Below the pieces are notes generated by a model, which was not told where the DNA came from, did not search any database, and was given only the letters and a program-made list of their open reading frames with translations. This document shows positions 1,361 to 61,299 of a DNA stretch of 64,000 nt, one piece after another; the stretch's first letter is position 1; each line of letters starts with the position of its first letter. Both the position numbers and the translations under genes were made by a program. Source of the DNA: Ascidia mentula (lineage: Eukaryota > Chordata > Ascidiacea > Phlebobranchia > Ascidiidae); NCBI GenBank assembly GCA_947561715.1, contig OX387201.1, forward strand, positions 18,056,001-18,120,000. The letters run 5' to 3'.

Positions 1361-1947
1361 CGAGTGACTAAGCAACTGCTAAAATAGCGACGTCTAGAAA
1401 AACGAACGAAAATGTATTAAAAATCCACAACAATTAAAGGCACTCTCCATACTTTCAATAAATATAGCTCTCCTCATTAACTCACCTAACATAACGCTTT
1501 GACACCAAGTACAGCATTCAGAGTATGTCGACTACCTCAGTCACCCAAGACAATGTATTCTCACCAGCCTGAATTCTTAGCTTTTGTTTCGTAACAAAAT
1601 GATATTAATGCCTTCTGCACGCACGTATGACAGTTTGACGGTTTTCCCACGAGGCAAAAAAGACAGCGCAGCAGTTGTTATCTACGGATGGCTCCACAGC
1701 GTCGCAGAGCGGATAGAGTGACTCAGAAAATACGCCGCCAGGGCAAACAATAAGCATTGAACCAATAATACGAATTTGTAAGCAGACACAAATCCTCCCT
1801 ACAACTCGATCTAGTTTTGAAATTAATCATGTCGGATGAGATGATTGCTTGAAAGTTTTTTAACCAGGTAGAAAACGACTTTCCAGTATCGAATTGCCAG
1901 TTTGCAGAAAGCTCAATATCAAAGCACACATGGTTACGAAACAATCA

Positions 1948-2056
1948 AGAGCCATAATAATCAATCAACTTCAACAGCTGCACTGATGAGAACTTTCAGG
2001 TCGAAACAGTGTGTGTATACACCCTGTATGCAGCTCTTATTGATTATTATGGCTCT
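1948..2056 (+). ncRNA. type I hammerhead ribozyme repeat, copy A
   Basis: The ribozyme core spans 1,976-2,035. AGCUGCA (stem I, 5' strand) is followed by CUGAUGAG, a stem II of AACU/AGGU with one mismatch, CGAAAC, a stem III closed by ACAG/CUGU around GUGUAUACAC, the cleavage triplet GUA, and UGCAGCU (stem I, 3' strand). Predicted cleavage is after 2,028. It is bracketed by a perfect 18-bp inverted repeat (1,948-1,965 and 2,039-2,056), of which the right arm is shared with copies at 41,777 and 42,070. Stem II is weakened, so activity is less certain than for the copy at 42,011. Confidence 0.75.
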
Positions 2057-2683
2057 TTTGCGCTTATAAATCAACGTGTCATAAACTAGTCTAGCTTTCT
2101 GCCCCAAGCTTTTAAATGAATCCGTAGTGAAACAAGTGTCTAGAGCCTTCAAACGAGACACAGCTTTATACAATCCTGATAAGTAAACAATCGAACTAAC
2201 AACACATCGGCGAGGTTGAAAAACCTGTAAACATCCTTGAAACGCAAAGGATGTAACTGCACTTATCCTTATTTAAAAGCGTATTAATTTGAACAGACCC
2301 ACAGCTCTACTGACGAGTTACAATTGCCTTTAGTGCAATCCATGGATCAACTGATTTCAACATACCGGGGCAAGTTACTCATGTGACGAGATTAGGCAAG
2401 GATATTCAAGGATTTAGGCTTAACGTTAGGAAACCTGAGTTAAAACTTGTCCTTAACACACCTTTTTTCATGAGCGGCGACTCATCACAAAAAACATATT
2501 ATGTTTGAAGTAGGTTGGATAAACTACTACCTGAAAGTAACATTGTAATGAGTCTTACAGATAATTTAAAAGCACATTTCTGCTGGTACAATAGGCTGGA
2601 CATTATCTTACCAGCTTCAATGAGAACATTTAATCAATAACAAAACATTCATGATCTAAGAAATTCTAATGCCACAAATTTAA

Positions 2684-9841: not shown

Positions 9842-9842
9842 C

Positions 9843-10870: not shown

Positions 10871-10904
10871 CCAAGCTCTGATCGATCCAGCTGTTTTAAA
10901 GACA

Positions 10905-13454: not shown

Positions 13455-13456
13455 AC

Positions 13457-13870: not shown

Positions 13871-13897
13871 GGGATTGCGTTAATCAGTGAGCACTCG

Positions 13898-19246: not shown

Positions 19247-19259
19247 CACTGTTAAAAAA
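19247..19259. repeat. left terminal inverted repeat of the CACTG transposon
   Basis: CACTGTTAAAAAA here and the inverted copy at the right end share 12 bases. Beyond that the two subterminal regions differ but both are rich in TTTTACAG words. Confidence 0.8.
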
Positions 19260-22171: not shown

Positions 22172-22229
22172 GTGAAATTGTTTTGCAATAGCATCCAAAA
22201 AAATTTCGTACTTTTTATAGGTGACAAAA

Positions 22230-24218
22230 TGAATGCTAACTTACTGAGAATTTTACCCGAATTGTCAAGTAATGACACACACTTACAAAACTGCTCCTCA
22301 TTTTTGGAGAGTCTTGGAGTGTTGACATTGAAAGACTTGGAACATGTAGAAACGAGTGATTTACTTGGAATTTTTAATTTAGTCCAGGCCCGCAAACTTT
22401 TGAAAGCTGCTAAATTTGATACAGGTTGGTAAGTTAGAAGTTGGTGCATATAGATTTGCTGGTAATAATTTTATTGTTATAGATTCTATATCTGGTTCTT
22501 CGACGGAACCCTGTTCCTCACAAAGTTCAAATGATGATTTAAACACATCACAGTGGATGTATAGTTTCAAAATTCCATGGAATAAATGCTCTCCGAAACT
22601 CATGGACATTTTGGAAAGTGGAAAGAGACCCCCAATTTATTTAAGCAAAGAGATTGTCCATGCAACAGTTGAAGATGTTATGAAGGTTATATTTAGTTAT
22701 AATAGTAGATATGTGCAAAAAACTATCAACAGTTTTAACTCAGTTTAGCTTTTGTTGTAGTGTCGAGTTTGGATTTATATTAGTTTAATTATAAGTTGTT
22801 ACTGTATAATTGAAGCAAAGTGAAAGGTTTTTTATTCAGATAACCAAGACTCCAGGCAGGAGAAACCTCGAAAGAATCGTGATTGCGATAGTTGAGAAAT
22901 ATCCAGATTCTTTTAGGGATCTGATTGATGGCATCTCTATTGGGAGTGGCCACAACACCCTAACGAATCAGCTCTACTATAGGTTTGAAAATGAAAGTAG
23001 AAAGTTTAAAAAGCTTCAATGTACTGGAAACAGGACAGTACCACAAAGTGGGAAGCGTTTGCAGCCATATGGAGTGGTAAATTGGAAGCCCGATGTAGAT
23101 GTATCAGATACAACTGCCAAAACATGGCTTTTAAATGAATTTAAAAAAGTTGACAAAGATATTGAACAAGTTGGCAGGTTAATGAAAAGTACTTTTGGTC
23201 AACAAAGGAAGAGTATAAACGATGGTAACACAATTAAAACAGTTATGGAGGATTGGCCATTTTTAAGCAAACCCCAATATCTTTTGCAACATTATGATCA
23301 GCTAATGCAGACTCATGACACCTTTAAACGACTTCCGACAGATGTGAGGAAACGAAGTCAGCAAATATACAAGTAATTTCCAGCAGACATTTTTGTCCTT
23401 TAACCAGTCTATTCAGTGCATCTTTTGTAGGGCACTGAAGTTTTCTTCAAAACTTCCAATAAAAGCAGTGTATAAACACATTAAAGATCAATGTGTTCAA
23501 TTAGAGAAAAAAAGTCCTGAAACAATAGAAGTTTTGGCATTGCTGACAGCCTATTTCAACGAGGAACAACATGCATTAATTAAATGCTACATGGTATTTA
23601 TAATTAAAACATTTGAAACTTGTTTATGGTTCAGATAAAATAATTGACCATGTCAAGTTCAAATTGAATTGTACCTGGACAAATTTAGTTTTATGTAACA
23701 TGTGAAGTACAAACTTACTTTATTGCTTACATGTATATAATGCAATTTTGTATCTAGGATGAATTTATGATGGACGACATTTTGGGAGAAATTCCACCCA
23801 CACCATTTTTGATCATATTTGGTATGTAAGCCAATTCCAAGTTTACTTTCTTTTTTTATGAGATTTGATTTTACAGGTAGCTCTCCGTCCTCCAGCAAAA
23901 AGATATGTGTTGCAGCCGAAAAAAATATTGTATGCTCGACAGAAAACTTTTTTGTGGCCTTGGTCTGCCTTTTTGCAACATACTATGTGTTTAATATAAG
24001 TTATCCCAAGTATGGTGAACTCACTATGGAGTTCTTACAAAGGTATGATACTTAAAATCATTTAGTCTGAAGTTTGTGACAAATTTTGTTGATCATGTAG
24101 ATTTATCTTCAAGATTAATGCACTTGGTGCAAAATCCACCAAAAAAAGGAGGTTTTCAGGAGTTAATTCCAAGATTTTAAAGCTTGCAAAGCTTCTGGGA
24201 AATGACACTGAAGCATAA
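22230..24218 (+). CDS. second transposon gene: SAM-domain protein, SAMD3-like, multi-exon
   Basis: Predicted exons begin with ATG 22,230 (ILPELSSND, then SAM-like FLESLGVLTLKDLEHVETSDLLG). They continue at 22,483 (FKIPWNKCSPKLMDILESG), 22,840 (NLERIVIAIVEKYPDSFRD, then GSGHNTLTNQL), 23,432 (LKFSSKLPIKAVY, LALLTAYFNEEQ), 23,760, 23,879 (ISYPKYGELTMEFLQR) and 24,101, ending with TAA at 24,216-24,218. The order SAM, basic middle region, and final Y-PK-x-TFEF-like motif matches proteins often annotated as SAMD3-like in fish and invertebrates. Splice signals fit at most joints; the first donor (CAG|GTTGGT) is weak. Its location inside the terminal repeats says it is transposon cargo, perhaps an assembly or DNA-binding partner of the transposase (inference). 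Confidence 0.65.
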
Positions 24219-24240
24219 TTATCTGTAAAATTATGTGATT

Positions 24241-24640
24241 ATTTCGTTCGCTGTGGCACCCGTTGTTGAAATGTGTTTCGTTCGCTGTGGCACAGGTTGT
24301 TGGTATGTATTTCGTTCGCTGTGGCACGGGTTGTTGGTATGTATTTCGTTCGCTGTGGCACGGGTTGTTGGTATGTATTTCGTTCGCTGGTGGCACGGGT
24401 TGTTGGTATGTATTTCGTTCGCTGTGGCACGGGTTGTTGGTATGTATTTCGTTCGCTGTGGCACGGGTTGTTGGTATGTATTTCGTTCGCTGTGGCACCG
24501 GCGGTTGGTATGTATTTCGTTCGCTGTGGCACGGGTTGTTGGTATGTATTTCGTTCGCTGTGGCACGGGTTGTTGGTATGTATTTCGTTCGCTGTGGCAC
24601 GGGTTGTTGGTATGTATTTCGTTCGCTGTGGCATTGGTGG
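24241..24640. repeat. 34-bp tandem repeat, 12 copies, subterminal in the CACTG transposon
   Basis: The unit is GTATGTATTTCGTTCGCTG followed by TGGCACGGGTTGTTG. Copies are nearly identical, with small variants at the two outer units and one G insertion near 24,390. The unit has no stop in most frames of either strand, which produces several long overlapping false ORFs. CMC-group elements often carry subterminal repeats bound by their transposase, which may be the role here. Confidence 0.9.
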
Positions 24641-24858
24641 TTGTGATGTTGAAACACCAAAATATACTTATAAATCCACAGTAAAGTTGGTACTATAACT
24701 TGAAATTTTACGGAGGTATAGATAGTAAAATGTAGGCAAGTTTTGACAGTATGATTTGGTAAATTACCCCAAAAAACATTGTAACATATACATACATTTT
24801 GACGTAAAATTTACGGGACGGGTTCGTCTTTTTACTGACAGTAGTATTTACTGTAAAA

Positions 24859-24871
24859 ATTTTTAACAGTG
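24859..24871. repeat. right terminal inverted repeat of the CACTG transposon
   Basis: Reads TTTTTAACAGTG, the inverse of the left end, followed by the flanking TA duplicate and then Polinton polymerase sequence. Confidence 0.8.
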
Positions 24872-26700
24872 TACCTTGTTTGAGCATGTCCATTTCCGAG
24901 CGAGTGAATAACGCCCGGAGGTTCCCCATCGCTTGAACGAACGGCACCACGTCAAGCAGATTGTAGTGCATAAGATAATCTTTAAGGGTGCTCATTTTCT
25001 GTTGCTTCCAGACACGTAAGCATCCATCGCACGTCTCTTGAGAAATGCTCTCGCGCTTCAGTGAACTGTAAAACGCTTCTCTTGGTGGTAAACTTGTCAC
25101 GTTTAACTTGGCGATGCAGTCCACAAACTCGTACAGAAATACACCTTTCGATTCCTCGCAGTCGAACGCTTTCAAGAAACTTGCGTAATTCACGTTTGGC
25201 GCGATATAGTTTCGTGCGTCCAAGAAAGCGAAGCGACTGGTTTGAATACATAAGAAATTATTTCCTTTCTTTGCCACGAAACCAATCTCGTCGTCTTTTA
25301 ATGCCTCTATGAGCCACTGTCGTGTCAACGGAAGGTCATACCGCCCGGAATTAAAACCCACTACGGGGATGATTTGTAAATAAGCAAGCAGATCATCTCG
25401 CAGTGATTCGATGGGGTGCACCCCCTGGCTGGGGTCGAGTAACAGCGCTTGCTGTACTTTTGTTTCCAAAAGAGCCAGAAGCCATTCAAAACGCTCCTGC
25501 ATTAAATGTGTAGCCCGACCTTGAATTTCCCCCAGGTAACCCACAAAACGATTCATAAGTTCCTGTGGTTGGCCGTTTGTCACAAAGCATTTACCTTGCT
25601 GAAACCCTGGCACGTCGCTGCACATCGCAACACTAAGTGGTATGTGCTCAGCAAGACATGCAGTTTTCGCGGTCGCATCAGGTAAATCCCGCTGGCTCAT
25701 CATTGCTTCCCAATCATAACAAACAACAAAGGGGTAGAATCGATATTCCGAAGGAACGTGGATACCGAATATTCGCAAACGGTCGAAAACTGTCGGAGCA
25801 ATACGAAAGCAGCCGCCTGGGAATACTTCACGTGTGATAAGAGAACAGGTTTTCTGGTGCTGGAAGCATCGGTCCATGCGATTGAAGACCGCTTTGCAGA
25901 CGGGGCAGGTGAAGTTCGAAGACGTTAATGTTCAAATCAAAGCAAGCTTCAACCGCCGGTAGAAAACTCAGGCGCACACCGGGAAAGCCCGCAATGCAAT
26001 TTTTGCCTGTGAACCGTTGACATAATTGCATTGCTGTGGGACTTGGCGCGCCGACGACCCGTGACGTACTCATGTGTGAAGCAATACACCGGAATATACA
26101 CAGATTATCGGTGATCGGCCGCCCATCGGCGGTTCTGTGAAATGTCACAAGACCAGTGTTGCGCGTCAGATGTCTTGGTAAATTAACAGGACTTCCAATC
26201 CATGCGTGCAGTGTGTAATAAACATAGAAAGTGATGTTTGTCAATACGTCAACATTCCATTTCGAGTCAGGGCGTTGTCTTCTAACCGCCTCAAGATGGT
26301 CGCAGTCCGCAAGATTTTGAAAAAATTCGAGCAGATCATCACGCGATTGTATTAGTGTTGGATGTGGAAAGAAATTGGCATTATTGTCCGATGCATGATA
26401 ATAGCGACGTTCCCCCGATTGATTCACAAGAATGAAGCCAAAACTGCAATTAATTTTAAATGCCATCTGCCCGTCACCCAATATAGTATGGACGATTGCA
26501 TCAACAAGAGTCCAGGCTATTGGCAACGAGAAATTGTACAATGACGTCACACGGCCAATACGCGCGTGAGTACGTATTGTCATCCAGCGCCGGGCAATCA
26601 AATCATCTCGCGGTGGCCGCTCGTCGGATATCAACAACTGTCGGTTAGCGCCGCCGCCGGTTTGAAAGCGTCTAACCACAAATGAATGTTATCAACCCGC
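24872..26700 (-). pseudogene. pPolB: Polinton protein-primed DNA polymerase B, N-terminal and exonuclease part, broken
   Basis: Carries the 3'-5' exonuclease motifs in order: CYDWEAM (Exo I, Asp-x-Glu), GFNSGRYDL (Exo II, Asn-x3-Tyr-Asp) and YLMHYNLLDVVPF (Exo III, Tyr-x3-Asp). Upstream, an extra N-terminal region includes TDNLCIFRCIASH, which resembles the D-(G)-N-x-C-x-F-R signature of OTU-type cysteine proteases, an N-terminal fusion known in some Polinton polymerases. The region is broken, and is separated from the palm part by the CACTG transposon. Confidence 0.82.
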
Positions 26701-31676: not shown

Positions 31677-31855
31677 CTGCATTGTTCCCAAAACAAGACA
31701 TAATGCGAATATATTTGTTGTTTTGCAGTTGCTTGGCCGTGGTGCGCTCCAACAAGGTTTATCAACGGCGGATTTTATTTAGTTAGGTACCCAGCTGATG
31801 ACAGCCACTGCAAAGTTTGACTTTGCCTAGGGACTTGGGTGCATAGACCAAACCT

Positions 31856-31898
31856 GCATTAATGAGACCTGATAGGTCGAAACAGTGGCCGTGAAACA
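31856..31898 (+). ncRNA. decayed hammerhead-like motif, copy I
   Basis: TTAATGAGACCTGATAGGTCGAAAC keeps stem II (GACC/GGTC) and GAAAC but has TTAATGA in place of CTGATGA, and lacks a clear stem I partner. It is an inactive relic of the same repeat family. Confidence 0.4.
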
Positions 31899-37298: not shown

Positions 37299-40200
37299 TC
37301 ACTGATAACTTTCATCCAAACCATCAACTTCCGGCTGAAAAAAATCACAAAAAGTTTTAATTTTATGAAATTTCACAAATAAATGTTTTCATGCAAATCT
37401 AAATTAAATCCTCACAGGGTTTTCCATATTAGCAAGTGCTCCCTTCACCATCTTAATCGACTCTGGATCCATTTCGCACCAACGCAGATCCAGCCTCACT
37501 CGAACCTTCGGTAAAATCTCACATATGATTTTTCCGTCGTCTTTTCCGCGAAACTCGTTCAGTTTCAGGCCGAGATATCTCAACTATTTAAAACATAAAG
37601 ACTGTTTGTTGGAAATATTTTTACACTTTCTGAACCAGGAAGAAGCAACATTTTATCCCAAAACTAAAACGATTCCATGTTTTTTTCTTCAAATAAATAA
37701 CTTTTGCAAAAAAATGTCAGGGATTTAAAACAGAATCTTGTTTGCAAAATAAATAAAAACACAAACAAACCTTTCGTTTCCATCTTTTTATTGCTTCACA
37801 AATAATCGTTAAATCTTCGGAGTTCAGGTCGCAACCCCCCAGCCACAGCCCCAAATCGTTTCTTGTAACTTTTGGTAAAAATTCCGTCACAACCTGAACG
37901 ATTGAGTGCAGTCGGGTTCCGGAAAAACTCAACACTTGAGGACAAAACCCGGCGAGTTTTTCTTGGTGGCATTTTTTGACTTCTCTAATATCCAGAATAA
38001 AATCTAAAACAAAACAGGAGAAAGTTTATTAAAAAAGCAGATGTCTGGTTTCCAGTTTTAATAAAATCACTTAAACCCACTTTATTGTTGCACAGAATAT
38101 AAAACGCCTAAATTATCAGAAAACATAAACATTACAGGACAAAAATAACGCATCTTACATCCACAACATTTTATCACCACTGAAATAACTGCATTGAGTG
38201 TTTGGTTCACACAATGACTGTGTGACGTAACAAATCCACCCATTGTTACACAAATAAATGTTGTGTTTATAAGCACGCAATAAACTGTTGGCATTCATGT
38301 CATTTACTCACTCAGTAGATTGTAATAGTCTGGTCGAGATTGGAGATATGTTGAAAGCGTATCCAATAATTTTGCACGTTTGTCTGGAAAACAAGAAACA
38401 ACAACATTTGCAATGAAACTGTTGACATGTATTTGGTTGGACCAATTGTTTTTGCCTTTGTTTTCTAGAAACACAGCAACTGTTTTTTTGAAGCTGAGTG
38501 GAACCTGTGCATTAACAAGCTTTAATCCAATCTGTATTTACATCGTGTACTCACGCAACACTCCATGATGCTTTGGTTGCAAGCGAAAAAGTCTTGAAAG
38601 TGCATCCAATAATTTACCACTGTTGCCTGGAAAATGAAATGCATTTTTAGAAAAAATAGATTTGTAGACATTTATTTAATAATGTTTTGCATCCAAATGT
38701 AATTTTCATTTCTGTACAGGCCTGTATTCAAGCTTTACGTGTATTAAAATGTGGTTGTACGTTACTGAAGTATGCTCTTATATTGGTGACATAACATAAG
38801 TGTAAAAATGTGAGCAACATTGGTCTGCATACCTGTTTGCTGACTCGCAGAATCTGTGACGTTGCCAACAGAAGTAGCATCGCACTTAGACTCATAACCA
38901 GCCTCAGCATTGTCACTTCTTGTATCTGCATAGAAAACACATATATCAACAAAGCAAATGTAATAACAGTGGTTTTGACTGCTTTACTTACCACTTATCT
39001 CTCCAAGCAAAAGGCCACAAGTAAACCGTCGCGTCATGGCCCAGTGTGCGTTTCTAACCAATTCTTTCAGAATTTGGTCAAATTCTTTATCTGGCATGAA
39101 GAAGGAAATGTAGTAAGCCCCGAGGAATTCCTGCAGAGTTTCATGTGAGTAGTAAATAATTGCTCCGGCACCATCAAAAACTTTTCGCTGTGGTAGCCAG
39201 GAATACTTGGGTAGTTTGATTATAATATTCTGTACATTGATGTAATCCAGACCCACTTCAGAGAGGTCTGTATGGGTAAACACAACAGTTTTACGAGCCT
39301 TTCCAATATAAGCCATTTGGCCAAGGGCTTTCATCACAAAGCTTGTATCCTTGTCCTTCGTATGTTCTGACACATCAAGTTGAAAAACAAAAAAAAAAAA
39401 CAAATTGCAAAAGTAATGGATGGCGACAAAAATTTAGCACTTCTGCAGATTCAGTTTCAAGTTTTGTCCACAGTTCACTTGCTTTTTCACCAGCATAAAA
39501 ATCAAATAGCTTTTTCATGTTTTCTGCAGAGAAATCATCGACATTAATGATGGATTTCGGACGAATTTCCACAGGAATTGTGAGCAGGGAATGGGGGCGG
39601 GACGTAAATATCAAAGATGATTTTTTGAAGAAGGTTTTTCCGCAGAGATTGGCAACAAGCTGTTGAACTGTGAAACGATTTTCGTAACTTGCACTTATTG
39701 CTGTCATATTTTCTAGTAACCATGTTGCCTGATCTAATCCATCAAATAATAAAACACATTTTTTTGGATTTTTTTTCATCCATTTAAATGCAGCATCTCG
39801 TACAGTTTGTTCAACATCAGGAAACTGTCTATCAAGTATAAGCTCTTGTAGTTTTAGTTTTTCATCTCCAAAGTTTAAATACATGAAGCTTAGATGCACC
39901 ACCAAATACTTCTTTTTCATGCGTTTAAACAGTTTCTTGGACATTGTGCTTTTCCCTGACCCCGCTGCTCCAATAATTGCAAGAAATTGATCACCTTTTT
40001 CAATTGTGGAAATCAATTCCTCAAATGTTAGGGGTTCGCCCTCACCTTGATCTGCTTTGTTCTTTCCTGTTAGTGGTAAATGCGACCTAACATTTTTGGC
40101 ATAGATGCCTCTGTAGAAGTTAATGACCTCTAGGGAAGGATTGACATCAGGAACTCCCTCTTCACATAAACCAGGTAGAGGAACCACAGCCTTGAGATCA

Positions 40201-42631
40201 TTTTGTTGATTTTTGATGATTTCGATGGCTTTGAGCTGCCTTTTCTCTGCAGGCAAAATAGACCAGTGAACGCACATTCTATATAGCAAGATCTTATTGC
40301 AAGATGCATTTCAACTGGCTAAGTTTTGGGAGAACAAAAACATTTTATTTGTTTTAGGACGCATATTGGTATTTCTATGAAAATAAGTTTAGGTGCTGGG
40401 AAATGCCCACCGTGTAGAACCTATGTCACAATAGAAATTCATGCATCACCAAGCAAACCAGTGATGCATATAAGTTAAATTTACGGTTGAATGACACGTG
40501 CGTGCTGTTGTCATGGAGAATTTTAGGGTGTTTGGGGCAGTTTTAGTGGGGTTTTGGGCTATTTCAATTAGGTAGTTACTTGCTGGTGAGTGCTGCTGAA
40601 AATTATGTTGAAAATGGAGCACAAGTTTAAGGCTGTATTTGTGGAAAAATGAATCTTATATGTGGCCGAACATTCTTGAGTTTATAAAAGATCCATCTCA
40701 TAACTACAAATTTTGATCAAAATTAGTCAGTAGAAAAATTGTTTAGCCACCCCCTGGGGGCATTAGCCCCCCTGGTTATTGAATATTTTGACAAAAAAAG
40801 GAACAAAAATTGGAACTGGATTTAGCAGAAATATGAATCGTTCAACTACCCACTCATTTGCATTTTTTTGTAAGTCCCAACTCTTCTCTATGCAATGGCA
40901 TCAAATTCAGTTGCTGAAAAAGTGTCAAAGCCCTCCCCCCAGGGCTGTTTATACTCCCCTGTTGGTCATATGATCTTCCAGGAGGCCCAGCAAGTCATTG
41001 CTCTGTATACAGTCTCATCCAGGAGCAAAATTTTTTTTTCAACGAAGAATTTTAGGTCCCTATGTAAGTCACAAGATTGGGAAACAAGCGGAACAGGCAC
41101 TAGATGCATTACAGCTGAGGGCCTTGAAAACAGGATTTCTCCAATTTAATACCCATATAGGTCCTTAATGGTACGGTATAGACACTGCTTCAATCAATTT
41201 TTACAATAATTTTGTGCTTACTAAAATGTATGCGACCAAACCTAATTGCCACCCCTTTCGATTAAAAATCTTTGTTGGCTAAACTTTTTAAATGTATCCC
41301 TGACCTGTGAGTTATAGTAAGCATTTTATTTTACCTTCATCTTGTTGCTCATCTGCTTTGGTGTTAGATGAATCTTATTAGAAAAATATAGTTTAAAACA
41401 GTTGAAAACTAGCACTACTCAAGCACAGCACATTATTTTAATGCCAATTGGAGACAAAGAACATTATATGTAATGAGAGCTGCAGACAGGGTGTATACAC
41501 GCACTGTTTCGACCTGTAAGGTCCATTCAGTGCAGCTGTTGACGTGGCACTGTGCTAGCTGGTAGACTAGCAGGCACACAGATTTCCACTTTGTGGTACC
41601 TTTCCGTCAATCGTCGATATGCTGGGTACCAAACTAGTTACCAATCAACACAGACGAACCACGTGGAGCGCACCTTGGCCAAAACTAGTCTACCAGCTAG
41701 CACAGTGCCACATCAACAGCTGCACTGATGAGACCTTACAGGTCGAAACAGTGCGTGTATACACCCTATCTGCAGCTCTCATTGATTATTATGGCTCTTT
41801 TGCGTATATAATATGATTTGGGTGAAAGCCGAGCCGATAGCGCTATTGGATCCCAAACAGTTGTTTTGGCCAAAGTGCGCTCCACGTGGTTCGTCTGTGT
41901 TGATTGGTACCTAGTTTGCTACCCAGCATATCGACGATTGACCGAAAGGTACCACAAAGTGGAAATCTGTGTGCCTGCTAGTCTACCAGCTAGCACAGTG
42001 CCACATCAACAGCTGCACTGATGAGACCTTACAGGTCGAAACAGTGCGTGTATACACCCTGTCTGCAGCTCTCATTGATTATTATGGCTCTTTTGCGCAC
42101 ATTATATGTAATGTTCTTTGTTTCCAACTGGCATTAAAATAATGTGGTGTGATTGAGATTTTGAATTTGCAACAGAATGATATAAAGCGAAGTCTGTGCA
42201 ATTACCCACTTGGGTTATAAAGCTGCTAGCTTCAAAAACGGAACATAAACATAATTTCCAAACGGATGTTTTTCTCTATGGGCATGTTCAGTGGTTGTTA
42301 ACTATGACATGTATTTGTAATACCTGGTGTATTGTAGAATTTTTTTGTTATTTTCACATCACCCTGAACTTCAACAATGCTATCAGCTATGTTTGCTCTC
42401 TGTGTTGATAATTGCTGTGAAGGACCTGGTTAAAAAAACATAAATTAATGAAAATTAAGCAAAGGAGGGCCAGAAAATGTTTTATAAAATGAGTTACTCT
42501 GAACAATAATACGTTATTGAGAAATTGGTTGTTCAAACACACTTCCTACCTGGTCTCTGTGGTTCAGTTTCAAAGTCGGCCACATGTTTTGTATCTGGCA
42601 TTGGTTTCTTCGGGGCTTCAGGACTCGACAT
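37299..42631 (-). CDS. NLR-type NACHT and leucine-rich-repeat protein
   Basis: Predicted exons: 42,631-42,550 (start, MSSPEAPKKPMPD), 42,428-42,324, an 18-nt exon at 41,352-41,335, the large NACHT exon from 40,253, then ~38,930-38,833, 38,632-38,568, ~38,383-38,310, ~38,003-37,772, ~37,589-37,425 and the last exon ending with TGA at 37,299-37,301. NACHT motifs: IIGAAGSGKST (Walker A), KKCVLLFDGLDQ (Walker B), LIFTSRP (sensor), then HETLQEFLGAYYIS of the helical region. Later exons give LRR-like LGLWLGGCDLNSEDLTIICEAI and VRLDLRWCEMDPESIKMVKGAL. No CARD, death or Pyrin domain is visible in the short N-terminus. A 12-T run (39,389-39,400) shifts the frame by one base inside the NACHT exon; either a sequencing error or a disabling change. 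The family senses infection or damage in the cytosol. Confidence 0.8.
38310..38632 (-). repeat. two similar short exons of the NLR gene
   Basis: Exon 38,632-38,568 encodes SGKLLDALSRLFRLQPKHHG and exon ~38,383-38,310 encodes RAKLLDTLSTYLQSRPDYYN. The shared AAATTATTGGAT(A/G)C(G/A)CTTTCAA core points to exon duplication. Flanking splice sites are similar in both. Confidence 0.55.
40380..40870. repeat. dispersed repeat, copy 1 of a pair with 55,400-55,870
   Basis: Shares GTGTTTGGGGCAGTTTTA, TGGTTTT(G/C)(G/A)GG, a GTGCTG(C/T)TGAA block, TTTGTGGAAAAATGAATC and a C-rich (C)CC(C/T)GGGGGCATT phrase with 55,400-55,870 in the same order and orientation. It is probably a non-autonomous transposon. It lies in an intron of the NLR gene. 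No coding capacity or terminal repeat could be defined by eye. Confidence 0.55.
41478..41537 (-). ncRNA. hammerhead ribozyme repeat, copy B (core altered)
   Basis: On the minus strand stem I, stem II, GAAAC, stem III and GUC are all preserved, but the core reads CTGAATGG instead of CTGATGAG. Loss of the invariant CUGANGA should abolish cleavage. Confidence 0.75.
41718..41777 (+). ncRNA. type I hammerhead ribozyme, copy C
   Basis: AGCUGCA, CUGAUGAG, GACC/GGUC stem II, CGAAAC, stem III around GUGUAUACAC, cleavage triplet AUC, UGCAGCU. All core nucleotides are canonical; the closing part of stem III is slightly weaker (CUAU instead of CUGU). Predicted cleavage is between 41,770 and 41,771, which starts the 293-nt monomer ended by copy D. 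Confidence 0.85.
42011..42070 (+). ncRNA. type I hammerhead ribozyme, copy D (canonical)
   Basis: Stem I is a perfect 7 bp between 42,011-42,017 (AGCUGCA) and 42,064-42,070 (UGCAGCU). CUGAUGA spans 42,018-42,024. Stem II pairs GACC 42,025-42,028 with GGUC 42,034-42,037. GAAA is at 42,038-42,041. Stem III starts with A41-U62, C42-G61, A43-U60 and G44-C59 (last two digits of the position) and ends in a GUG/CAC hairpin. The triplet GUC lies at 42,061-42,063, so cleavage is expected after 42,063. Every invariant core position of the hammerhead is satisfied. Confidence 0.92.
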
Positions 42632-44100: not shown

Positions 44101-44756
44101 AATCCGATTGGACCTTCACGACACAACGGACCACTCGACTTTTAAATAAAGGACCTGTATGCGCCACACAATCGTCGTACGCCCATGGTGAATGATAACA
44201 ACCTAGGGATTGGAAAGGCTGGTCGTCTTTTTGCGTAATTGAGAAAATAGTGGGAACACGTGCGAAAGATTTGACCGAAATCACCTGCTCGGTCGTCAAG
44301 AAGTTGCCACTTCTTGTTACTTTAGGAAAGCTGTGCTATCTGTTATCGATGTCTGGGTCCATAACATATGTTTCGCGACCATGATAACACAGTACATACA
44401 GGGCGTTAATGGCGGATATGTGAGCACCAACCATCACACGCTACTTCGTATCACGAAGAGTGCAGCAAGGAAGTAAAAGTAAATCTTACACAGAGCACGA
44501 GCGTCAGAGTTATAGAAACGCAAACTAGATTATCTCGATATTATACCTGAAATCGAAATGATTTCAACACTTTCTGGCCTCGTATTTGGTAGGGCCGTGT
44601 AGAAAACATGTGGCCTCCTAAGCGTTGGTCGGTTTACAGTAGTTCTAAGTGCATGGTGAGCTCTACTGTAAATTATATGTTTTGCGGGAATAAACGAATG
44701 CAGGCAAATATACGTTTATTCTGAAAAAAATCTTTAGTTCTTTAATGGTTTACTTT

Positions 44757-45001
44757 CACACATTGGGCAATGGTAGCTTGTAAGCCCCAAATAGGTGTGC
44801 GTCGTTCACACATTGGGCACTGGTAGCTTGTAAGTCCCAAATAGGTGTGCGTCGTTCACACATTGGCACTGGTAGCTTACAAGCCCCAAATAGGTTTGCG
44901 TCGTTCAAACATTGGCACTGGTAGCTTGTAAGCCCCAAATAGGTTTGCGTCGTTCAAACATTGGCACTGGTAGCTTGTAAGCCCCAAATAGGTTTGCGTC
45001 G
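44757..45001. repeat. ~50-bp tandem repeat, five copies
   Basis: Unit ACACATTGGGCACTGGTAGC followed by TTGTAAGCCCCAAATAGGTG and TGCGTCGTTC. Unit length is 48-50 bp; copies differ by a G in GGG/GG and by GGTGTG versus GGTTTG, with later copies the more uniform. No coding meaning: the frame across it is repeat translation. Confidence 0.9.
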
Positions 45002-46357
45002 TAACACCAGCATGTCACAATAACTTGTGTTCCGTAATATTAGCATGTAATTTCTTTCAATATTATACGTAACAAAACAGGTCATCATTTCTAGTCTGTA
45101 GCATGATTAAACGACTTACACTATATTTTTCAAACAAAGTCAAAAAAGGCAAAACATGACTACGTTACGCTAACGTTAAAAGAAAACAAGATCATAAATT
45201 CATTGTTGAGTGCCTCGCCTCATATGCAATCTGTATGTGTTCCTTCTACCGAAAACGTTGGACGAGCTTGCTTTAACTGCACGCCACGCTATTCTTTTCG
45301 TTGCGTTAATAGCATCACACAAAAGAAAAACTTTTCGTTTGATGTGATCAGTGAAGTGTAACGTTTTAGGCGCCTTGTAACTTTCACACTTTCTATAATT
45401 AAACGAAAAGAATGAGATTGCTCTTATACCCCAAATAAACGGATTTGCTCTGTTATTGGGGCAGTCTAATCCTTTTGTTGTGTCGATTTATGCTTTGTAA
45501 ATACAAGAATTCAACATCGTGTCATAGTTTACGTCAGCGATAACAATATTGTCATCAATATTAAACCGCATTTTGAATCTAACTTACATTACGTTCACAG
45601 TCATTTGACAACAAAACTTAGAAGTGCACGTTTGATCAGTTTTTCCATTAGCGACAACATCGGAGTTTCATGTAATTTCATCAGCATCAATCTCACACAT
45701 CAGCAACCTAATTTGACAAACGATTTTGTTTCTGCTTCTGGACAACCAAAGCATAAAGTGACTGCTTAACCTTACGCTAAACATTTTCAGCTATGTTTTC
45801 CAAGAATATTTGCCATAAACTTATAGCTAACCATAGCATAAGAACCAATAAACAAGTTGCTTCACAGCTACCTTGAAATATTGCCCAAATTCAGTTCCTC
45901 ATTTTACTGAATCAGTGGCTACGAGATGAAAGGTCAAATTTGTTCAAAGAGTAACCTGATGTGCAACGACTTACAATAACCTTCTCTCGTCGCTTGCGTC
46001 GTAACAAGTATATTGCCAGCACAACAACGCACGCACCTCGATCACGCACAGGAAAAACAGCGTAAGGAGAAGTGCTGGAAGCAGACAAACGCAGTCAAGC
46101 GTGTGTATTTTTTTCTCACAACAAAGGAGATACCAATTTATGTAGTAATTAAAAGGAAAGCATAATAGGAAAAGACAGACTTGTTTCTATGTAAGATAAC
46201 TTTAATACAATTTTTTTTACAAATCGCACTCACAGATGTCACATATAAAATAACTATTTGTGAAATAATTTATTCTTACATACGGGGAATCACCGAACGG
46301 TGGGTTCGTAGATTCAAATTTTTCTTTGATTGAATTTATGGGAAGCAAAAATTAAAA
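45002..46357. other. no gene recognised; upstream region of the pseudokinase gene
   Basis: AT-rich sequence without long frames or repeats shared in the window. Confidence 0.4.
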
Positions 46358-49300
46358 ATGGGATCTAAGGACATGCTTTGTAAGTATTTTTGAAACTTTT
46401 TCGTGTGTTTTGACGTGTGTTATATTTTTGTGCTTTTTTTGGAAAAAAAATTGGCGACATTGAATAAAATGCACGACCCAGGTTTTTTCTGGAATAAATT
46501 ATAAAATCAATCTGTTTTTCTGAAATCAGGCGTTAGACACCAAGGCCTACTAGCCATGAATTACAAATTCTCCTATCCCATAAACCTTTAACAGATTGAA
46601 GAAAAGTTTGAAAATATTTACTGATGCTCTGCACAAAAAATACCCTATGCATTAACATACGATAAGTGTTTGCTATTCTGCACTTCATCCTGATGATCAA
46701 AAGTGCAAAAAACATCTAATCTGTTTTCACCAGCTTACATTTTTTTTGGATAAAATATACATGTGTTTATTTGCAGTGCGACAGTTGGTCCATCATCAGG
46801 ATAATCCAAACAGACATTTGTGGACTCCTCATTATGCTCAGGCAGCATTCGATCATGCTGGTGATGCATTTGTTAATGTGGGATTTTTTGGAACCGATGA
46901 AATGTCAAAAAAAGTTTTCTTTCTTGTGTATTTGGAGTACATGAAACAGACAAGAGATTTAACAGTAAGTCAAAAAGGTAAAGCAGGGTACTGTGTGAGT
47001 GACAAATGACACAAAAAAACCAAGGTGACTAGTGATGTTGTTGAACATCAAATATCCATGTGAAAAAAAGTTCATGAGGGCTTTATTGTTTTTTGTGTTC
47101 AACAGGCACCAACCAATGCAATCTTCCAACGATACAAGCAGCACTGTTATGCAAAAAACTTTCCCATCAGACAACTTGATAGAATAACTGGTCTCTGTTT
47201 GCAGGAAACCCCATTTTGTCGTCCAATAGAGGATGATCAGCTTGTAAGTAGAAGTGGTAAACTTTGAATTTGCATTAAGCATTAAGAAGTATAAATTTTT
47301 TGACTTTGTTTATGTTTGTTGCATTGATTTGCAACAATAAATGATGTATTTACAGAAGATGCATACTTTTAAAGATTTTTTTATGTTTTTTTTTATTTCA
47401 CTTTTATTTTTTTTAATGTCTTGAAAAAATATGTTGAAACTAGATCTTGGTTCACAAAAACATTATAATATTAAATTATCTTCATAATTTCACATTTCCA
47501 TTTATATTACTGATTTTGTGGTCAGATAATATGTAAATTGTGTCCACAATTCCTGAATATAAAACTTTTAATTCAATGTTTCAAGCAGCTCTTTCAAATA
47601 TGTTTTATTATCAGCAGAAAATTTTATTTTGCCCTGATAAGGGCATCATCAGTTTCTGCGAAGAGTAAAAACAAAAGCAACGTAAAATAACTAAGTACAA
47701 GCGAAGGTCTGTTCATTGCTTTTGTGTCCAAAATGTCCATATGTATGTTTTTAATTTTCCAGTAAATATTTTATGCCTTGAAGACAGTTATGTTGATTTT
47801 GTATTATTCTAAACTTCTTACTCACAACTAGTAAATATACCTAAGTGTTTATGTGCACAATAACAAGTTTTAACATAAAGAATATAAATAAGCACCATCT
47901 ATTTTATTTTTCAACCAGCTTCGTTGTTTTTCAATGCTGACTCTGGAGTTGAATCAAAGAACATTTAGTTTAAACAAATGTATTTTGCAATGTGCTGGTG
48001 CCATGGCTTCCACTATTGTTATCAATGTGCTAGAGGAGATTACAGAATCGGATTTGTCCCACTTGAAGGTTTGGATAAGTTTGTATGTTTGAAACATTTC
48101 ACAGAATAAAAATTACCATTGGATTAATATATTGCTATATGACTTAATATTTATCGTTTAGTATTGAACCCATAATTTACCCTTAATATTTTACAAAAAA
48201 GTTTGAAAAATCGACGCCTATGATATCATCTATATATCAAATCTATAATTTATCATAACCACTTGTGCATATTTTTTGTATCTGTTCTGTTCATTCTCAG
48301 GTGTTTGTGGATTATGCAAAGAAAATTCAATGGTATGGATTCACTTCTATATTGCAGGTATAATTAACTTGAACATTTCAAACACATGGTATATTATGTG
48401 ATATATACGATACATTCAATGGTATTGGAAACAAAATTAATTGTATTTCACAAGTTTTCTGGTTGCGTTGTAATAAATTACTTATAAATGTTTCTTTTTG
48501 CAAGGAATTGGTTTTTGTCATCCATGAGTACAAAGGCCCCAAATATGGACAAAATAATGATTATCTCAAAACAGTTTTGACAAAATATTCAACCTCAGAA
48601 TATTCCTTTGATCTACTTTCTGTAGCATTTGATAGCTGTATGTGCTACACTCTGCCTTCAGTCAAAGATGTTACACACTCAAAAGGTTGGTTCTGTGGCG
48701 TATATTTCTATGTTAAAAAAAGCCATAATATTGGAAAGCTGCAGACAGGGTGTGTACCTGCACTGTTTCGACCTGTAAGGTAAGATCCGTTTGGCCATGG
48801 TGTTATTTTTCACATATATTGCATTGGTGTTTTTGCCTTTAGCACTATCGGTTACCAAGCAGATCCGTTTGGCCATAGTGCGCTCCACAGTGGTTCGTCG
48901 TCTCTATTGTTCGGTACTCAGTATAGGGTACCAAACACATCGTCGTTCACCGAAAGGTACCACAAAGTGGAAATTAGTGTGCCCGCTAGTGTAAAAGCTG
49001 GCACAGTGCCACTGTCAACAGCTACACTGATGAAACCTTACAGGTCGAAACATTGCGTGTACACAGCCTGTCTGCAGCTTTCCAATATTTCTATGTTCTG
49101 ATCCAAATTAAAATTTTCATCATGCATGTATTTGCATTGTATGGTCCTGTTCTAAAAGTTATTCCACTATTTGTGCATTAACTTGCACTGGAATTTAATA
49201 AAAAGATTCAAAATATGTAAAACTATGGTTATAAATGGTGTCGTTTGCTTACAAATTGCATATTTGTAATTTATTGTTTTGAAGATCTTCCTGTCGACTA

Positions 49301-52300: not shown

Positions 52301-54893
52301 TTCTTGCATAGCAAATATTTTTTTGTGTTGGATAAAAGTTTTATTTTAGAGGAAACACGATGCCACCTACTTTGAAAATGAAAAGAAGTTAGCAGCGAAA
52401 TACCATGAACTTATGGATAACGGGGTAAGAAAACTTGAAACTGTTATTTGTTTCACTTCCAGTCATCATTTACATATACACACCTCAAAGCGAAGATTTG
52501 TTTATATCTTAATATTTCTTACTAGGTGTAAAACCTAGTTTTTATTGTTTATTCGTCAATTATTTACTGATAAAATGTACAATGATTTCGTAATTGATAA
52601 AACAACAGAAGTGCATGACACTGAAATGTTGTCAACGAAAATCGTTTGCAAAAACTGTGGATCATTCTGAACAAACATAACATCAAGTGATTCAATCATA
52701 TTTTCATACAAGGACAAGCAGAAGTCAATTTGTAATAAACATTTTAAATGCACATTGTTTTAGATTTTGGAATTGGAGAACATCCAAAACTTTAAAGCCT
52801 TACATGGCCGTGCAGTGAGTCAAGCTTATCAACATCTGAAGTTAAGCAAGAAGTTATCGAAAGAAAACGGTGAAATGTTGAGAGAGAGTTTGACCCCGTT
52901 CAAAGAAAAATACCTCGAGATGTTTGAACTTAATCAGGTAATTACAGCAAAATGGTTTAGGTTTTTTATTACACTGTTTTAACTCATAAGGTCTCATCAA
53001 TGCTGCCATGGCAAGATTGTCCACACCACGTTGCACTGATAAGACTTGATAGGTTGAAACAATGGCCATCTGTATGCAGCTCACAAAATTCATATTATTG
53101 ATCTCCATGCTCATTTATTTTATATGCACAAAAGCCAAAATATTAAATGAGAGCTGCAGACAGGTGTACACACTGTTTCGACCTGTAAGGTCTCATCAGT
53201 GCATCTGGTGACTGTGGCACAAGGCTACATTTGCTTGGTATATTTATTGCGCCCAATGTGGTTCGTCTACGATCATTTGTAGCTAGTTTGGTACCCAACA
53301 TATTGACAATTGACTAAAAGGTGCCACAAAGTGGAAATCTGTGTGCCTGCAAGTCTACCAGTTAGCCCTGAGCCCGGCGGGCCACATGGACTAACCTTGT
53401 GGACCATAGTTTAGTGACCCCTGGCGTAGAGTTACATGCCCTTAGTTAACCTTTTCCTTTAGTTATCATGGATTTGCAACATTAACTAGAGGATGTTGTG
53501 GCAATATCTGGGTTTTGTTGCAGATCTGCATCTTGTGTCTCTCTTGATTCCAGAGTGAACACACGAGCTATGATAAATTATCATTGAACATTTTACATGA
53601 TCTGTTACTCTATTTGTAGGAACTTAAAGCAGCAGAAGCCAGGTTAAAGGTATTGGAGGACCAAAAGCTTGCTTCTAAGAAGGTAGAAAAATGTTTACTG
53701 TGAAAAAGAATTTTGCGGTCGGTTTTACATTGTGTATTCAGTGCTTATTTTAACACACTTAGTTGATGTATTGGAATACCAACAATTTTGTAATGTATTG
53801 CGAGATCTATGATTGGAAAACAAACATGTGATGCAACTTTATGTTGAAAGAAACGCTTTTGTCAATGCAGTAATTCTGCACACAACTGACAACCATTAAA
53901 TTAGATTATAATCAGTTTAACAAATCCATTACTTTAGGCTGTGGATTGTTTTGTTCCTCCGAGCGCGCTGACGTTTTCCATGGACAAAATTATTGACAAC
54001 GGAAACTTCAGGCTTGTTAAGAAGGCGTGGAATGACATGCATGGAAATGTAACAGTGCAGTACATTAACATAGAGGACGGAATATCGACCGAACAGCAGA
54101 TGGAAACGTAAGTTTGTAAATATATTGACACGGTTTGGGATTTTAGTCTCAGTAATTGAGCTGGTACGTTTGTTGCAGGTTGACGGAGGGCGTCTCACTA
54201 TCCCGGTTGGCTAATCACGATCACGTGATCCGCGTACTCGGTCACACTCGCCAGGGAAACGAGTTCGGAGTTTTGTTCGAGTACGTGGACGGTATGGACA
54301 TCCTCCCCTTCCTCCAATACACCAGAAAGAAGGATTTCTGGCTTCCTCCCCTGGCCAACCTCCGACTCTGTGCCGATATCGCATCTGCCATTCACTTCCT
54401 CCACTCCGATCCAATCTTTAGAGTCGGTGACATCACGATTGATGACGTAATGATCACGTGTAGCCTTCGTGCCAAAGTGACGGGGTTTAAGATTGGTAAA
54501 TTTATGGAAGGCAACGAAAGTCGTGGGAATGGTGCCGCGTCCCTTGCAAAGATAATCGCATCTATAATCCTCCGGGAGAAGTGGAGTGGTGATGAGGATT
54601 GGGATCGGATTGCGGAGGAGAGCATGGCGTGCGCAGAGACCCAGGAAGAGCGGAAGTTATGTTGGGCACTGGAGGATGAAATCCGACTCTGTCAAGGGGA
54701 AAGTCCCTCGGTCGCTGAAACACGAAAACGTCTCTTCATGCGCTTGGAATCCTCTGATGACGGAGGTTTCACTTCTTCGGATGAGCGCACAACTAGGCTC
54801 TTAGAATACCTCCTGGATGCCATGAGAGAGCTCGACTTTTTAAACAATGATCAGAATAAAATTGATGACAATGATGTCCTTCCTATTCTTTAA
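46358..54893 (+). CDS. 1,005-residue helical protein with C-terminal pseudokinase domain
   Basis: I predict 21 exons: 46,358-46,379; 46,777-46,964; 47,106-47,243; 47,919-48,068; 48,301-48,357; 48,505-48,685; 49,285-49,475; 49,755-49,826; 50,004-50,204; 50,288-50,353; 50,533-50,589; 51,172-51,231; 51,335-51,449; 51,561-51,646; 51,732-51,788; 52,014-52,193; 52,350-52,424; 52,764-52,937; 53,620-53,682; 53,938-54,107; 54,179-54,893. Phases match at every joint and the coding length is divisible by three. Residues ~1-470 are helical and unrecognised. About 470-710 are charged, coiled-coil-like. The last ~290 resemble a kinase (LANHDHVIRVLG; FEYVDGMDILPFL; ADIASAIHFLH). The usual Lys strand reads VTVQYI, HRD reads FRVGD and DFG reads TGFK, so it is a pseudokinase. 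The final 50 residues are acidic. Start at 46,358 is chosen for its splice fit. Confidence 0.75.
48737..49079 (+). mobile_element. hammerhead repeat unit, copies E (partial, minus) and F (plus)
   Basis: Copy E (48,737-48,782, minus strand) keeps only the 3' half of the ribozyme. Copy F (49,020-49,079, plus) has AGCUACA, CUGAUGA, ACCU/AGGU stem II, CGAAAC, GUC and UGCAGCU, with one stem I mismatch and A in place of G at the base of stem II. The sequence between them (GTGCGCTCCAC, GGTTCGTC, GGTACCACAAAGTGGAAAT) matches the body of the 293-nt unit at 41,771-42,063. It lies in an intron of the pseudokinase gene. Confidence 0.75.
53031..53081 (+). ncRNA. decayed hammerhead motif, copy H
   Basis: TGCACTGATAAGACTTGATAG, then GTTGAAACAATGGCC, then CTGTATGCAGCT: stem I and GAAAC remain, but the core reads CTGATAA. 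Probably inactive. It is 70 bases from copy G, which is on the opposite strand, so the pair is another inverted arrangement. Confidence 0.55.
53152..53400 (-). ncRNA. type I hammerhead ribozyme, copy G, with repeat body
   Basis: On the minus strand 53,206-53,152 reads AGAUGCA, CUGAUGAG, GACC/GGUC stem II, CGAAAC, a compact stem III (ACAG, GUGUACAC, CUGU), GUC, UGCAGCU. The core is intact; stem I has one mismatch. The following 53,210-53,400 contains the family body (GTGGTTCGTCTACGATC, GTGCCACAAAGTGGAAATCTG) but in direct orientation relative to the plus strand. Intronic in the pseudokinase gene. Confidence 0.75.
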
Positions 54894-57928: not shown

Positions 57929-60900
57929 TCATTGGTTGGGTATGGCGTTAACAACATCAGCCAAGACTTCCTCGAGAAAAGGGTTGCCCCTGTTCCGTTG
58001 GATAGCTAGCTTAAAGTGTACAGAGGTTTTGAAGTATGATACCAAATGCCGGGAAATGTCGTTGATGGGTCGTATGTCGTGTTTAATTCTGTTCCGTGTT
58101 TTCCAAATAGTGTGTGTAAGTGAGGTGTTAAGGAATGCTGCTAATGTTTTTGTGTATGGTGTTGTGTTATGAAGTTGTGGAAAGACGATGTGTAAAGGTG
58201 TATCAAATAGAGAAGAGTTTGAGTTAGTTAAAGTTCGGAAAATATTTTTAATTTGGGTGAGAAGAGGTTGAATAGAGCGACAGTTGTGAAAAAGGTGAGA
58301 GAAAGTTTCTAATGAGGAATTACAAAGGTAGCAGTGGGGTTCTTGATCCAGGGCAAGATAGGTTCGTTGGCATTTTAGCGGAAGAATTTTAAGGGTAAGG
58401 CGATAATTAAAAGTTTTAAGGTAGTTGGGGAAGATAGGGTGGTGGATTTGGGACCAGTCGTTGAAATGATGGGGTGTGGTGGATTCGTCCACGATACGGT
58501 GATAGAGGGGCTTTAGTTTATGGGTCATGAGTTCAGTTTCGGTAAGGTTTAAAGATTTGAGGAGGTTTAGAATATATAGATAGTGGGGAGAAGGTGTTGT
58601 TGCGTGTGGTAGGTAATTCCTAGTACGAAGGTTGAAAAGTTTGCTGAGGGGGAGTCCAAGATTATATTCTATGAAGGAAAGTTGCGGAGTAGTTGGGGAA
58701 TCCAAAAGGCGGTGATTGTAATATTGTTTGATAGAATAGAGAAGTGATAGGTCAGCGTAGAGGGGAATGTTTGCCGCGCCGTAACCACCATGGTTACGAC
58801 GGGCTGCCAGGATGTTAATTGACAAGGTTGGATTATTTGGGCCGACGACGAACTTTACCACAATGCCGTCGATCCGTTCTCGTTGCTGGGGTGGTAAGGG
58901 GTAAGTTTTAGCAAGGTATGAAATTTGGGGTAAAAGTATAGTTTTTGAGAGGATGCATTTAGAGTCAAAAGTAAGAAAAGGGTTGCTCATAGATCTGGCG
59001 CGGGATTGTAAAGAGGTGATTGCTTTGTGCCATGTCGCGGTGATGTCTGATGGTGCGCCTATTGGGGTATTTAACGGGCTTATCGATTTAGGGTTCCACT
59101 TTATATTACACAAGGTTGGGTCGTCAAGGGGAGGTCGAAGGATGGCAATCGCTTCGGTTTTGGTGGGGTTGAGTTTTAAACCAGAAAATTTAGCAAAATT
59201 GTCAATGAGGCCGAGGGCTTTGGTGAGGGAGTGCCGATGAGCCACCACTAGGGTGACGTCATCGGCGTAAGCGATTGCCTTGGGTGTGTTGCGGCATGGC
59301 ACCGGGGTTGAAGTGATAGCAGGGTTGTTTTGAAGGGCAACGAGAAGCGGATCTAGGGCAATCAGGAAGAGGTTCAGACTAAGGGGGTCACCTTGTCTGA
59401 TACCTCTCCTGATCGGAAAGTCCGTTGTGGCAAAGCCGTTTACGAAGGCCCGGGAGTTGGCGCTAGAGTGAAGGGCAGAAAGGTAATTAGTAAAGCAAGT
59501 GGGAAAGCGTTTAAGATTTAACTGAAGAAGTAGCCAGGAGAATGAAACAGAATCGAAGGCTTTTTGAAAATCTAGGGAAATGAAGAAAGTGTCCGAATTG
59601 ATGGAGGATGCGTGGTGGTGAAGATCGCGTAAGAGTGAAGTTGCGTCGGATGTGGATGAGCCGGGGGTAGCGAATTGGTTTGAAGAAAGAATTTTGGGAA
59701 TAAAGGGTTTGAGTCTTAGGTTCAAAAGTTTGTGGAGAATTTTAAGATCAGTATTTAACAGAGAAATGGGTCTATAATTATTAAGGAGAGTGGGGTCATT
59801 TTTCTTGAAAATTAGGGTCAGATGGCCAAGGTTAAATTCTGTTGGGGTGTAGGAATTGAAATATGCGTAGTTGAGAGCTTGGGTGAGGTCGGCCCCGATG
59901 AGGTCCCAGTACAGCGAGTAAAACTCGCTGCTGAGACCGTCGGGGCCGGGGGTTTTGCCTGAAGGAAAAAGGGAAAGTGTTTTTCTTACTTCGTGCAGTG
60001 TGATGGGATTCGATAAGGTTGTAAGGAATTGATCTGGTATTACTTTTAAAGGGGTTTTAACAAATAAATTAGAAGGGTCGGGTAATGGAAGGTGTTGATC
60101 GGAATAAAGAGTTTCAAAGAATTGCCGGGTGTGGGAAAGAAGGTAAAGAGAATTTAGGTTTTTTTTGATAGATTGGAAAATACGGAAGTTATCGGGAGAG
60201 GGATTGTCGTTGAGAATTTGGCGGGCGGTGTCGAGTTGTTGCTGTAAGGTGTAGGTTTGGTCGCGGGATTCTTGAGCCAGGCGTTTGGAGTGGGATTTTA
60301 TCAATGATTTAAATTTAAATTTAAGAGTTATCCAAAAGTCCATGGGGTTAGAGTGGAAAGGAGCGAGAGTTTGCCAAAGAGGGTAATAGCGGTGAAAATC
60401 GAGGCGAAAAAGAGGGTCGTTAAGGGTTTTAGTGTTGTTCTTCCAGGTACCTCGTCCCCTGGGTGGGGCAGAGATAAGGTTGACGGAAACCGAAACTGAA
60501 TCATGATCCGAAAAAGGGCATGGGATGAATAAATGTTTGTTGGGAATTAACGAAGAGGAAAGATAAATTCTATCAATTCTGGACTGTGTATTTAGGGCAC
60601 GACGGGAAAATTGGCGGAGGTTTGGATGAAGCAGCCGAAATGAATCCTGTAGGTTAAAAGTTGTTAATAATTTTATAAGGTTGTAGCTGGGCTGTCGATT
60701 GGGTACTGGGGGGTGTTTGTCCAAGGTAGGGTCAGTTACACAGTTAAAGTCACCAGTAAAAACAATGGGATGGGTAGAAGAAATGTAGGGGTAGAGAGAA
60801 TCGAAGAATTTATTATTGAGTATGTAGTGATTTGTGCTAGAGGGTGCGTATATATTAACTAAGTGAAAGGTGTGGGTCAGGGTTGAAATGTCGGCCGCAA

Positions 60901-61192: not shown

Positions 61193-61299
61193 TATAAAAT
61201 TAACTCAAGAAAACAAAAAAAAGAATATATATATATATATAAAGTGGGTGCAACAGAAAGTAAACAAAAACGGGACAAAATTAATGGGGTTGTGGTTGT

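Follow-up and report, generated by a model that had tools for sequence, protein, structure and literature searches.

A window of 64,000 nucleotides (nt) from the ascidian Ascidia mentula (contig OX387201.1, positions 18,056,001 to 18,120,000) contains a head-to-head repeat built from a 293-nt unit with hammerhead ribozyme motifs. Judged from its sequence, the unit is an animal retrozyme, of the kind without long terminal repeats (non-LTR). The structure is probably one insertion of a 287-293-nt type I hammerhead retrozyme, placed there by the enzyme of a Penelope-like element (PLE) resident in the same genome, which would have primed on both target strands. What carries this is the ribozyme motif, its copy number, tandem and head-to-head arms, two alternating classes of ends, target duplications, and PLEs with matching ends. 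An earlier sequence-only reading had recognised a retrozyme-type hammerhead repeat and a link to PLEs; the former is supported here, and the insertion ends support the latter. The inverted arm, the 224-nt inverted repeat and the head-to-head insertion as a whole were absent from that reading. The parts of the insertion are:

41472..42108, plus strand: whole retrozyme insertion from BLAST dissection; a short-tailed inverted arm followed by a long-tailed direct arm
41472..41685, minus strand: inverted arm (unit 93-293, then 1-13; short tail), 96% identical to the unit
41685..42108, plus strand: direct arm from BLAST dissection (unit 208-293, 1-293, 1-45; long tail)
41771..42063, plus strand: 293-nt unit bounded by the two cut sites; 47% GC, no long reading frame
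41712..41788, plus strand: hammerhead copy C, weakened, with an AUC triplet
42005..42081, plus strand: hammerhead copy D, predicted cut after 42063
41462..41475, plus strand: target duplication, left copy of the direct repeat CATTATATGTAATG, position counted on the sequence
42100..42113, plus strand: target duplication, right copy of the direct repeat CATTATATGTAATG, position counted on the sequence

The outermost letters of the insertion overlap the target duplication, and the boundary between them cannot be drawn. The right arm of the 224-nt inverted repeat (95%) spans copy D. In the inverted arm the ribozyme core reads CTGAATGG where CTGATGAG is expected.

Hammerhead motif and retrozyme family

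The direct repeat 41685-41815 / 41978-42108 has a spacing of 293 nt and an identity of 97%, in agreement with the direct tandem of C and D described earlier. The description of D as a canonical hammerhead also holds: it fits a descriptor of the core and three stems (core 42018-42024; stem I 7 bp, stem II 5 bp, stem III 4 bp; predicted cut after 42063) and is the sole site on both strands of the window, while the same descriptor found 0 matches in 60 Markov-simulated windows. D has the stem I internal loop and stem II hairpin of the canonical type I hammerhead found in metazoan non-LTR retrozymes. Copy C is absent from the sites that pass. As had been read from the letters, it deviates by an AUC triplet; the closing pair of stem III, described then as weaker, is lost, C having CCCTATC where D has CCCTGTC (A instead of G at 41768). 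In its predicted 77-nt fold, D has stems I, II and III together with the internal loop and an outer AUCAA/UUGAU helix, at a z-score of only -1.55 against shuffles; the minimum-energy fold of the 77-nt piece of C, like that of the two 57-nt pieces, is instead a competing hairpin in which some of the core is paired. On these letters the hammerhead at 42,018 is genuine as a motif, and it is predicted to be an active ribozyme.

The genome-wide copy search that had been suggested as a check was conducted on 195.8 Mb. With at most 3 mismatches a 25-nt ribozyme core has 3,618 near-copies (1,824 + 1,794), and the same core read backwards has 0 occurrences in the same genome. Searching with the whole unit gave at least 110 matching pieces (40 scored of 1,814 candidates). 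Three subfamilies, A, B and C, are represented by units of 293, 291 and 287 nt (window, L093 and L099), within the 170-400 nt of retrozyme units found in dimers to multimers. The longest insertion arms (919-965 nt) correspond to about 3 units. The GC content is below 50% (47%), the target duplication exceeds 4 bp and, as stated earlier for the 293-nt unit, there is no coding capacity: the longest stop-free stretches in trimers of units A, B and C are 69, 96 and 119 amino acids. The mitochondrial COX1 (contig C79) has five in-frame TGA codons and reads by the ascidian code; its AGR codons fall at sites that we take to be conserved glycines, as this code expects.

Conservation of the core relative to its flanks, another proposed check, gave a mixed result. 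Among 31 distinct ribozyme versions from L001-L030, located by their 3' part rather than by the core, there are 10 changes at 12 core sites against 45 at 61 other sites, which gives no hint that selection has acted on the core since insertion. Deviation among 75 pieces is 0.010 in the ribozyme region, 0.017 in its core and 0.020 in the body. Between units A, B and C (three sequences only) the ribozyme is more conserved, with 37/41 identical columns against 137/201 in the body and 21/35 in the tail; the 41 ribozyme columns exclude the 25-nt core by which two of the units were found.

Insertion ends and target duplications

Retrozyme loci were fetched from among the 100 places listed by the 25-nt core search, and 99 loci were aligned to concatenated units. 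The alignments show direct arms, in many loci with an adjoining inverted arm, and the 3' tails of both point outwards. Past the ribozyme cut the outer ends fall into two classes, short (most often 11-13 nt) and long (most often 37-46 nt). The bins were unit positions 3-26 and 27-55, and the observed ranges were 4-25 and 27-51. From 53 head-to-head rows, 13 were dropped as duplicates by their flanks, which left 40 independent insertions, including the one in the window (L001). By automatic classification, 31 of these combine a short with a long end, 3 are long/long, 2 are short/short and 4 were not classed (one-sided binomial for opposite ends on the 36 classed pairs: 6.5e-6). Judged by eye, L094 appears to be short/long and L051 to be long/short, and counting them so would give 33/36; L096 is unclear, and L014 and L088 are exceptions. 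The long tail belongs to the longer arm in 15/31 insertions and to the shorter in 16/31. Rows listed as single elements were left out of this count; some of them, by eye, hold a tiny inverted piece missed by BLAST (L006, L008, L009/L042/L043 and L087), and L009 looks long/short.

Exact target duplications of at least 8 nt flank 27/40 insertions, compared with 1.5% of 1,553 shuffled pairings. They vary in length (mostly 8-14 nt), and the AT content of the flanking 20+20 nt is 73%, compared with 59% for the window. A general preference for palindromic targets was not seen (mean 5.8 versus 5.6 in controls), with L001 standing out at 15.

Most arms extend from the tail across the cut site into upstream sequence, so the template was probably uncut or religated there. 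In the young insertion L002, three pieces from both arms have 0 differences in every pairwise comparison; both arms would therefore derive from one RNA or from identical RNAs. A circle test of unit identity, for which ten loci repeating other insertions were removed, gave a weighted 2.4% within elements (24 pairs) versus 3.0% between them, a weak difference confounded by later exchange. Enrichment of 5' ends at the ribozyme cut was considered as well and not used as evidence, few arms starting at unit position 1 or 293.

Penelope-like elements of the genome

The genome contains at least 121 GIY-YIG matches (150 scored of 382 candidates), and L076 carries both reverse transcriptase (RT) and GIY-YIG domains. 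At C67:6132528-6148416 five neighbouring PLE copies form a head-to-head tandem array, with two in one orientation, three in the opposite one and a spacing of 2,870 nt per strand. Where compared, their sequences agree at 100%, except for one at 99.95%, and this near-identity suggests recent activity.

PLE ends were surveyed at L061-L080 and L121-L126. PLE1 ends near 2027-2031 and 2067-2071 of L076. By eye, in all 11 head-to-head PLEs with both ends readable (L063, L071/72, L073-77, L079, L080 and L121-L126) the long tail is confined to a single end; the opposite end of L121 and of L125 does not reach the usual short point. L066 was left out because it holds two opposite copies with undefinable tails, and the other loci showed no readable pair. 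The retrozyme insertions have this same end structure, with an inverted copy, a tail on one end (31/36 classed) and a target duplication (27/40).

The retrozyme itself is not a PLE: the 293-nt unit has no long open reading frame (ORF), and thus none with RT and GIY-YIG domains, and a tblastn search of the window with PLE1 proteins found no match. A different hammerhead-bearing sequence adjoins a PLE at L080:687-770 (plus strand), with the core CTGATGAGAATTAATATGTCGAAA and, by eye, the cut site TGTC|TGCCGC; it is possibly a second retrozyme family.

Proposed mechanism and alternatives

In the mechanism that we consider probable, the enzyme of the co-resident PLE would reverse-transcribe retrozyme RNA at a staggered break in AT-rich DNA, with duplications of mostly 8-14 nt. 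Both target strands would prime reverse transcription, usually one at the short point (11-13 nt) and the other at the long point (37-46 nt). The template may have been a religated (circular) or an uncut multimeric RNA; the two cDNAs would continue past the intact cut site into the sequence upstream of it before being joined head to head.

A more specific version is possible but somewhat doubtful. Each insertion would then be the work of one PLE enzyme pair on one circular retrozyme RNA, one subunit priming at the long point and the other at the short point, on opposite strands. Asymmetric double priming would be the rule of Penelope-type integration, and retrozymes its minimal substrates.

Several results weigh against PLE-mediated insertion of a hammerhead retrozyme. 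Like ends occur in 5/36 classed pairs, and among the rows listed as single, L008 looks short/short and L087 long/long by eye. A damaged third copy in the window (1947..2069) appears by eye to be long at both ends. Compared with the PLE2 tail, the retrozyme tail matches at 13 of about 26-27 positions, a score that 179 and 301 of 5,000 shuffles also attained; two other PLE tails gave fewer matches, and the PLE1 and PLE3 tails compared had probably been truncated. None of the PLE tails tested clearly resembles the retrozyme tail in sequence, so no particular PLE stands out as the partner. The minimum-energy fold of 41690-42110 lacks stem I of D in cis, the 5' strand of C pairing with the 3' strand of D.

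Rfam likewise gives 0 matches at gathering score in the whole window. The covariance-model check proposed earlier therefore failed at that level, and weak sub-threshold hammerhead matches remained at C and D: RAGATH-1 with 29.1 bits at D and 23.3 at C (gathering 56.3), and Hammerhead_3 with 24.8 bits at both (gathering 48.5). The retrozyme copy at 48.6-49.2 kb, at 20.6 bits, is also below gathering. The hammerhead is assigned by motif and context rather than by Rfam. Matches to Rfam miRNA and snoRNA families (best MIR7723, 37.9 bits, E 7.5e-6, gathering 200) were below gathering and taken as hairpin or chance effects.

Among the alternatives, the repeat could have arisen from a PLE by deletion (solo terminal repeats) instead of being a retrozyme borrowing a PLE enzyme. 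The end pattern is the same as that of PLEs, and a 2024 review proposes that retrozymes arose by PLE reduction (PMC11722881). We nevertheless regard this as unlikely, as the doubled unit has only matches of 36 nt or less to 21 PLE stretches (L061-L081): the one at E 2e-4 falls on a separate hammerhead in L080, and the others have E values of 0.03 (two) and 4.6 (two). The retrozyme ribozyme is also of type I with a longer stem III, whereas the PLE ribozymes look minimal.

Movement by a long interspersed nuclear element (LINE), with the inversions produced by twin priming, is very unlikely. LINE insertions can hold inverted pieces, and an endonuclease/RT ORF of LINE type lies in the same window at 57929-61204, but in 36/40 insertions both outer ends carry a retrozyme 3' tail that is either short or long. 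Runs of at least 6 A within 15 nt past the arm 3' ends were found at just 4/156, so no poly-A tail is evident; three of these start 7-8 nt away, and the fourth, 2 nt away, is at an arm that ends inside the unit. A foldback or MITE-type (miniature inverted-repeat transposable element) DNA transposon whose terminal inverted repeats hold the ribozyme by chance would account for inverted ends and target duplications but is barely plausible, given that in most insertions one end has the long tail and the other does not (31/36), arm (22-795 nt) and duplication lengths vary, and tandem units occur.

Predicted folding and monomer release

The transcript of the whole insertion is predicted to form a long hairpin (-465 kcal/mol versus -190 for shuffles) that pairs the D ribozyme with the left arm. 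Stem I of D forms when 41771-42110 is folded alone; once the left arm is included, the two arms pair with each other, burying D. The sequence-only reading had plus-strand RNA releasing a 293-nt monomer. Release from this locus is doubtful because copy C has the AUC triplet and the whole transcript is predicted to fold as a long hairpin. Minus-strand transcripts would bear only the left-arm ribozyme, with its altered core.

Setting of the insertion and other features of the window

The insertion occupies the middle of a low-copy inverted repeat, the arm of which has 7 matching places, every one on contig C69. No uninterrupted centre of this repeat was found, nor was an empty site, searched as the joined 28-nt pattern with at most 3 mismatches. 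A copy 380 kb away aligns at 95.9% over 2.8 kb, insertion included, and also carries the AUC of copy C; the insertion in the window therefore predates that duplication. Other retrozyme-related features were located:

41418..41461, plus strand: inverted repeat enclosing the insertion, left part; low copy, all copies found on contig C69
42114..42157, minus strand: inverted repeat enclosing the insertion, right part; low copy, all copies found on contig C69
48715..49084, plus strand: second retrozyme insertion, closest to subfamily B; by eye left long tail (cut short), right short tail
1947..2069, plus strand: third retrozyme copy, damaged (see above)
53116..53374, unstranded: fourth retrozyme copy, head-to-head; left long tail, right end lost
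31854-31887, strand not given: core fragment

The second insertion is flanked by a 13-nt direct repeat (48702-48714 / 49085-49097) and lies outside the sample of 40.

The insertion had been placed antisense in an intron of an immune NLR gene. This position is compatible with a minus-strand NACHT ORF at 39375-40310 and a minus-strand exon-like ORF that, by eye, stops at a donor-like GT near 42550. The named relatives among the 11 matches of the NACHT protein are from the ascidian Clavelina lepadiformis, with identities of 35-36%. Elsewhere in the window, strong tandem arrays occur at 24240-24633 and 44755-45002, with units of 34 nt and 49 nt. By our own reading, ORFs at 9215-15178 and 18043-26688 may belong to a large Maverick/Polinton-like DNA element (ATPase, integrase and others); no Pfam family was assigned to the candidate ORFs at 13871, 18043, 24708 and 25828, or to 20759-22171.

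Relation to known systems

Metazoan non-LTR retrozymes (Cervera and de la Pena 2020, PMC7229834) share with the present family a type I hammerhead, non-coding tandem units of 170-400 nt with low GC, target duplications over 4 bp and the presence of PLEs alongside them in the genome. A difference lies in the head-to-head arms and two-point tails, which were not seen in the parts of that paper covered; in its main text the words inverted, tunicate, ascidian and Ciona have 0 occurrences. The animal-retrozyme literature covered, mainly open-access and without supplements, contains no report of head-to-head arms with two-point tails. In another tunicate, Didemnum vexillum, nine type I hammerhead loci have been reported (PMC8704543).

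Rotifer PLEs have direct and inverted repeats, a 31-bp tail at one inverted repeat and 8-10-bp duplications (PMC3846280), and the anole PLE protein cleaves and extends both strands, prefers AT-rich DNA and starts at two adjacent internal sites bounding the genomic tail (PMC11167929). The retrozyme resembles these elements in its direct repeats with an inverted partial copy, a tail of about 30-40 nt on one end, target duplications and a hammerhead near the tail. It differs in having no ORF, a much shorter unit and a type I ribozyme with a longer, not minimal, stem III. In plant LTR retrozymes, paired hammerheads likewise bound a non-coding unit that circularises, but the ribozymes are of type III with 600-1000-bp spacing, and there are LTRs, a primer-binding site and 4-bp duplications (PMC7761336, PMC7229834). 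No sign of these plant-type features was seen here, though LTR-type motifs were not searched for.

A 2020 review already named PLEs or Terminons as the likely movers of animal retrozymes, based on type I hammerheads in both and on co-occurrence, and described the repeats as lacking a conserved motif from which the machinery could be deduced (PMC7761336); in 2024, LINEs or PLEs were still named (PMC11722881). PLE mobilisation was thus proposed before (PMC7761336), and the new point is the end pattern, which ties the retrozyme to PLE-type integration. The insertion ends are direct structural evidence for the PLE option, and the mapped start points make the question of the mobilising enzyme testable with purified enzyme. 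With 3,618 near-copies of the ribozyme core, an ascidian is added to the hosts of retrozymes.
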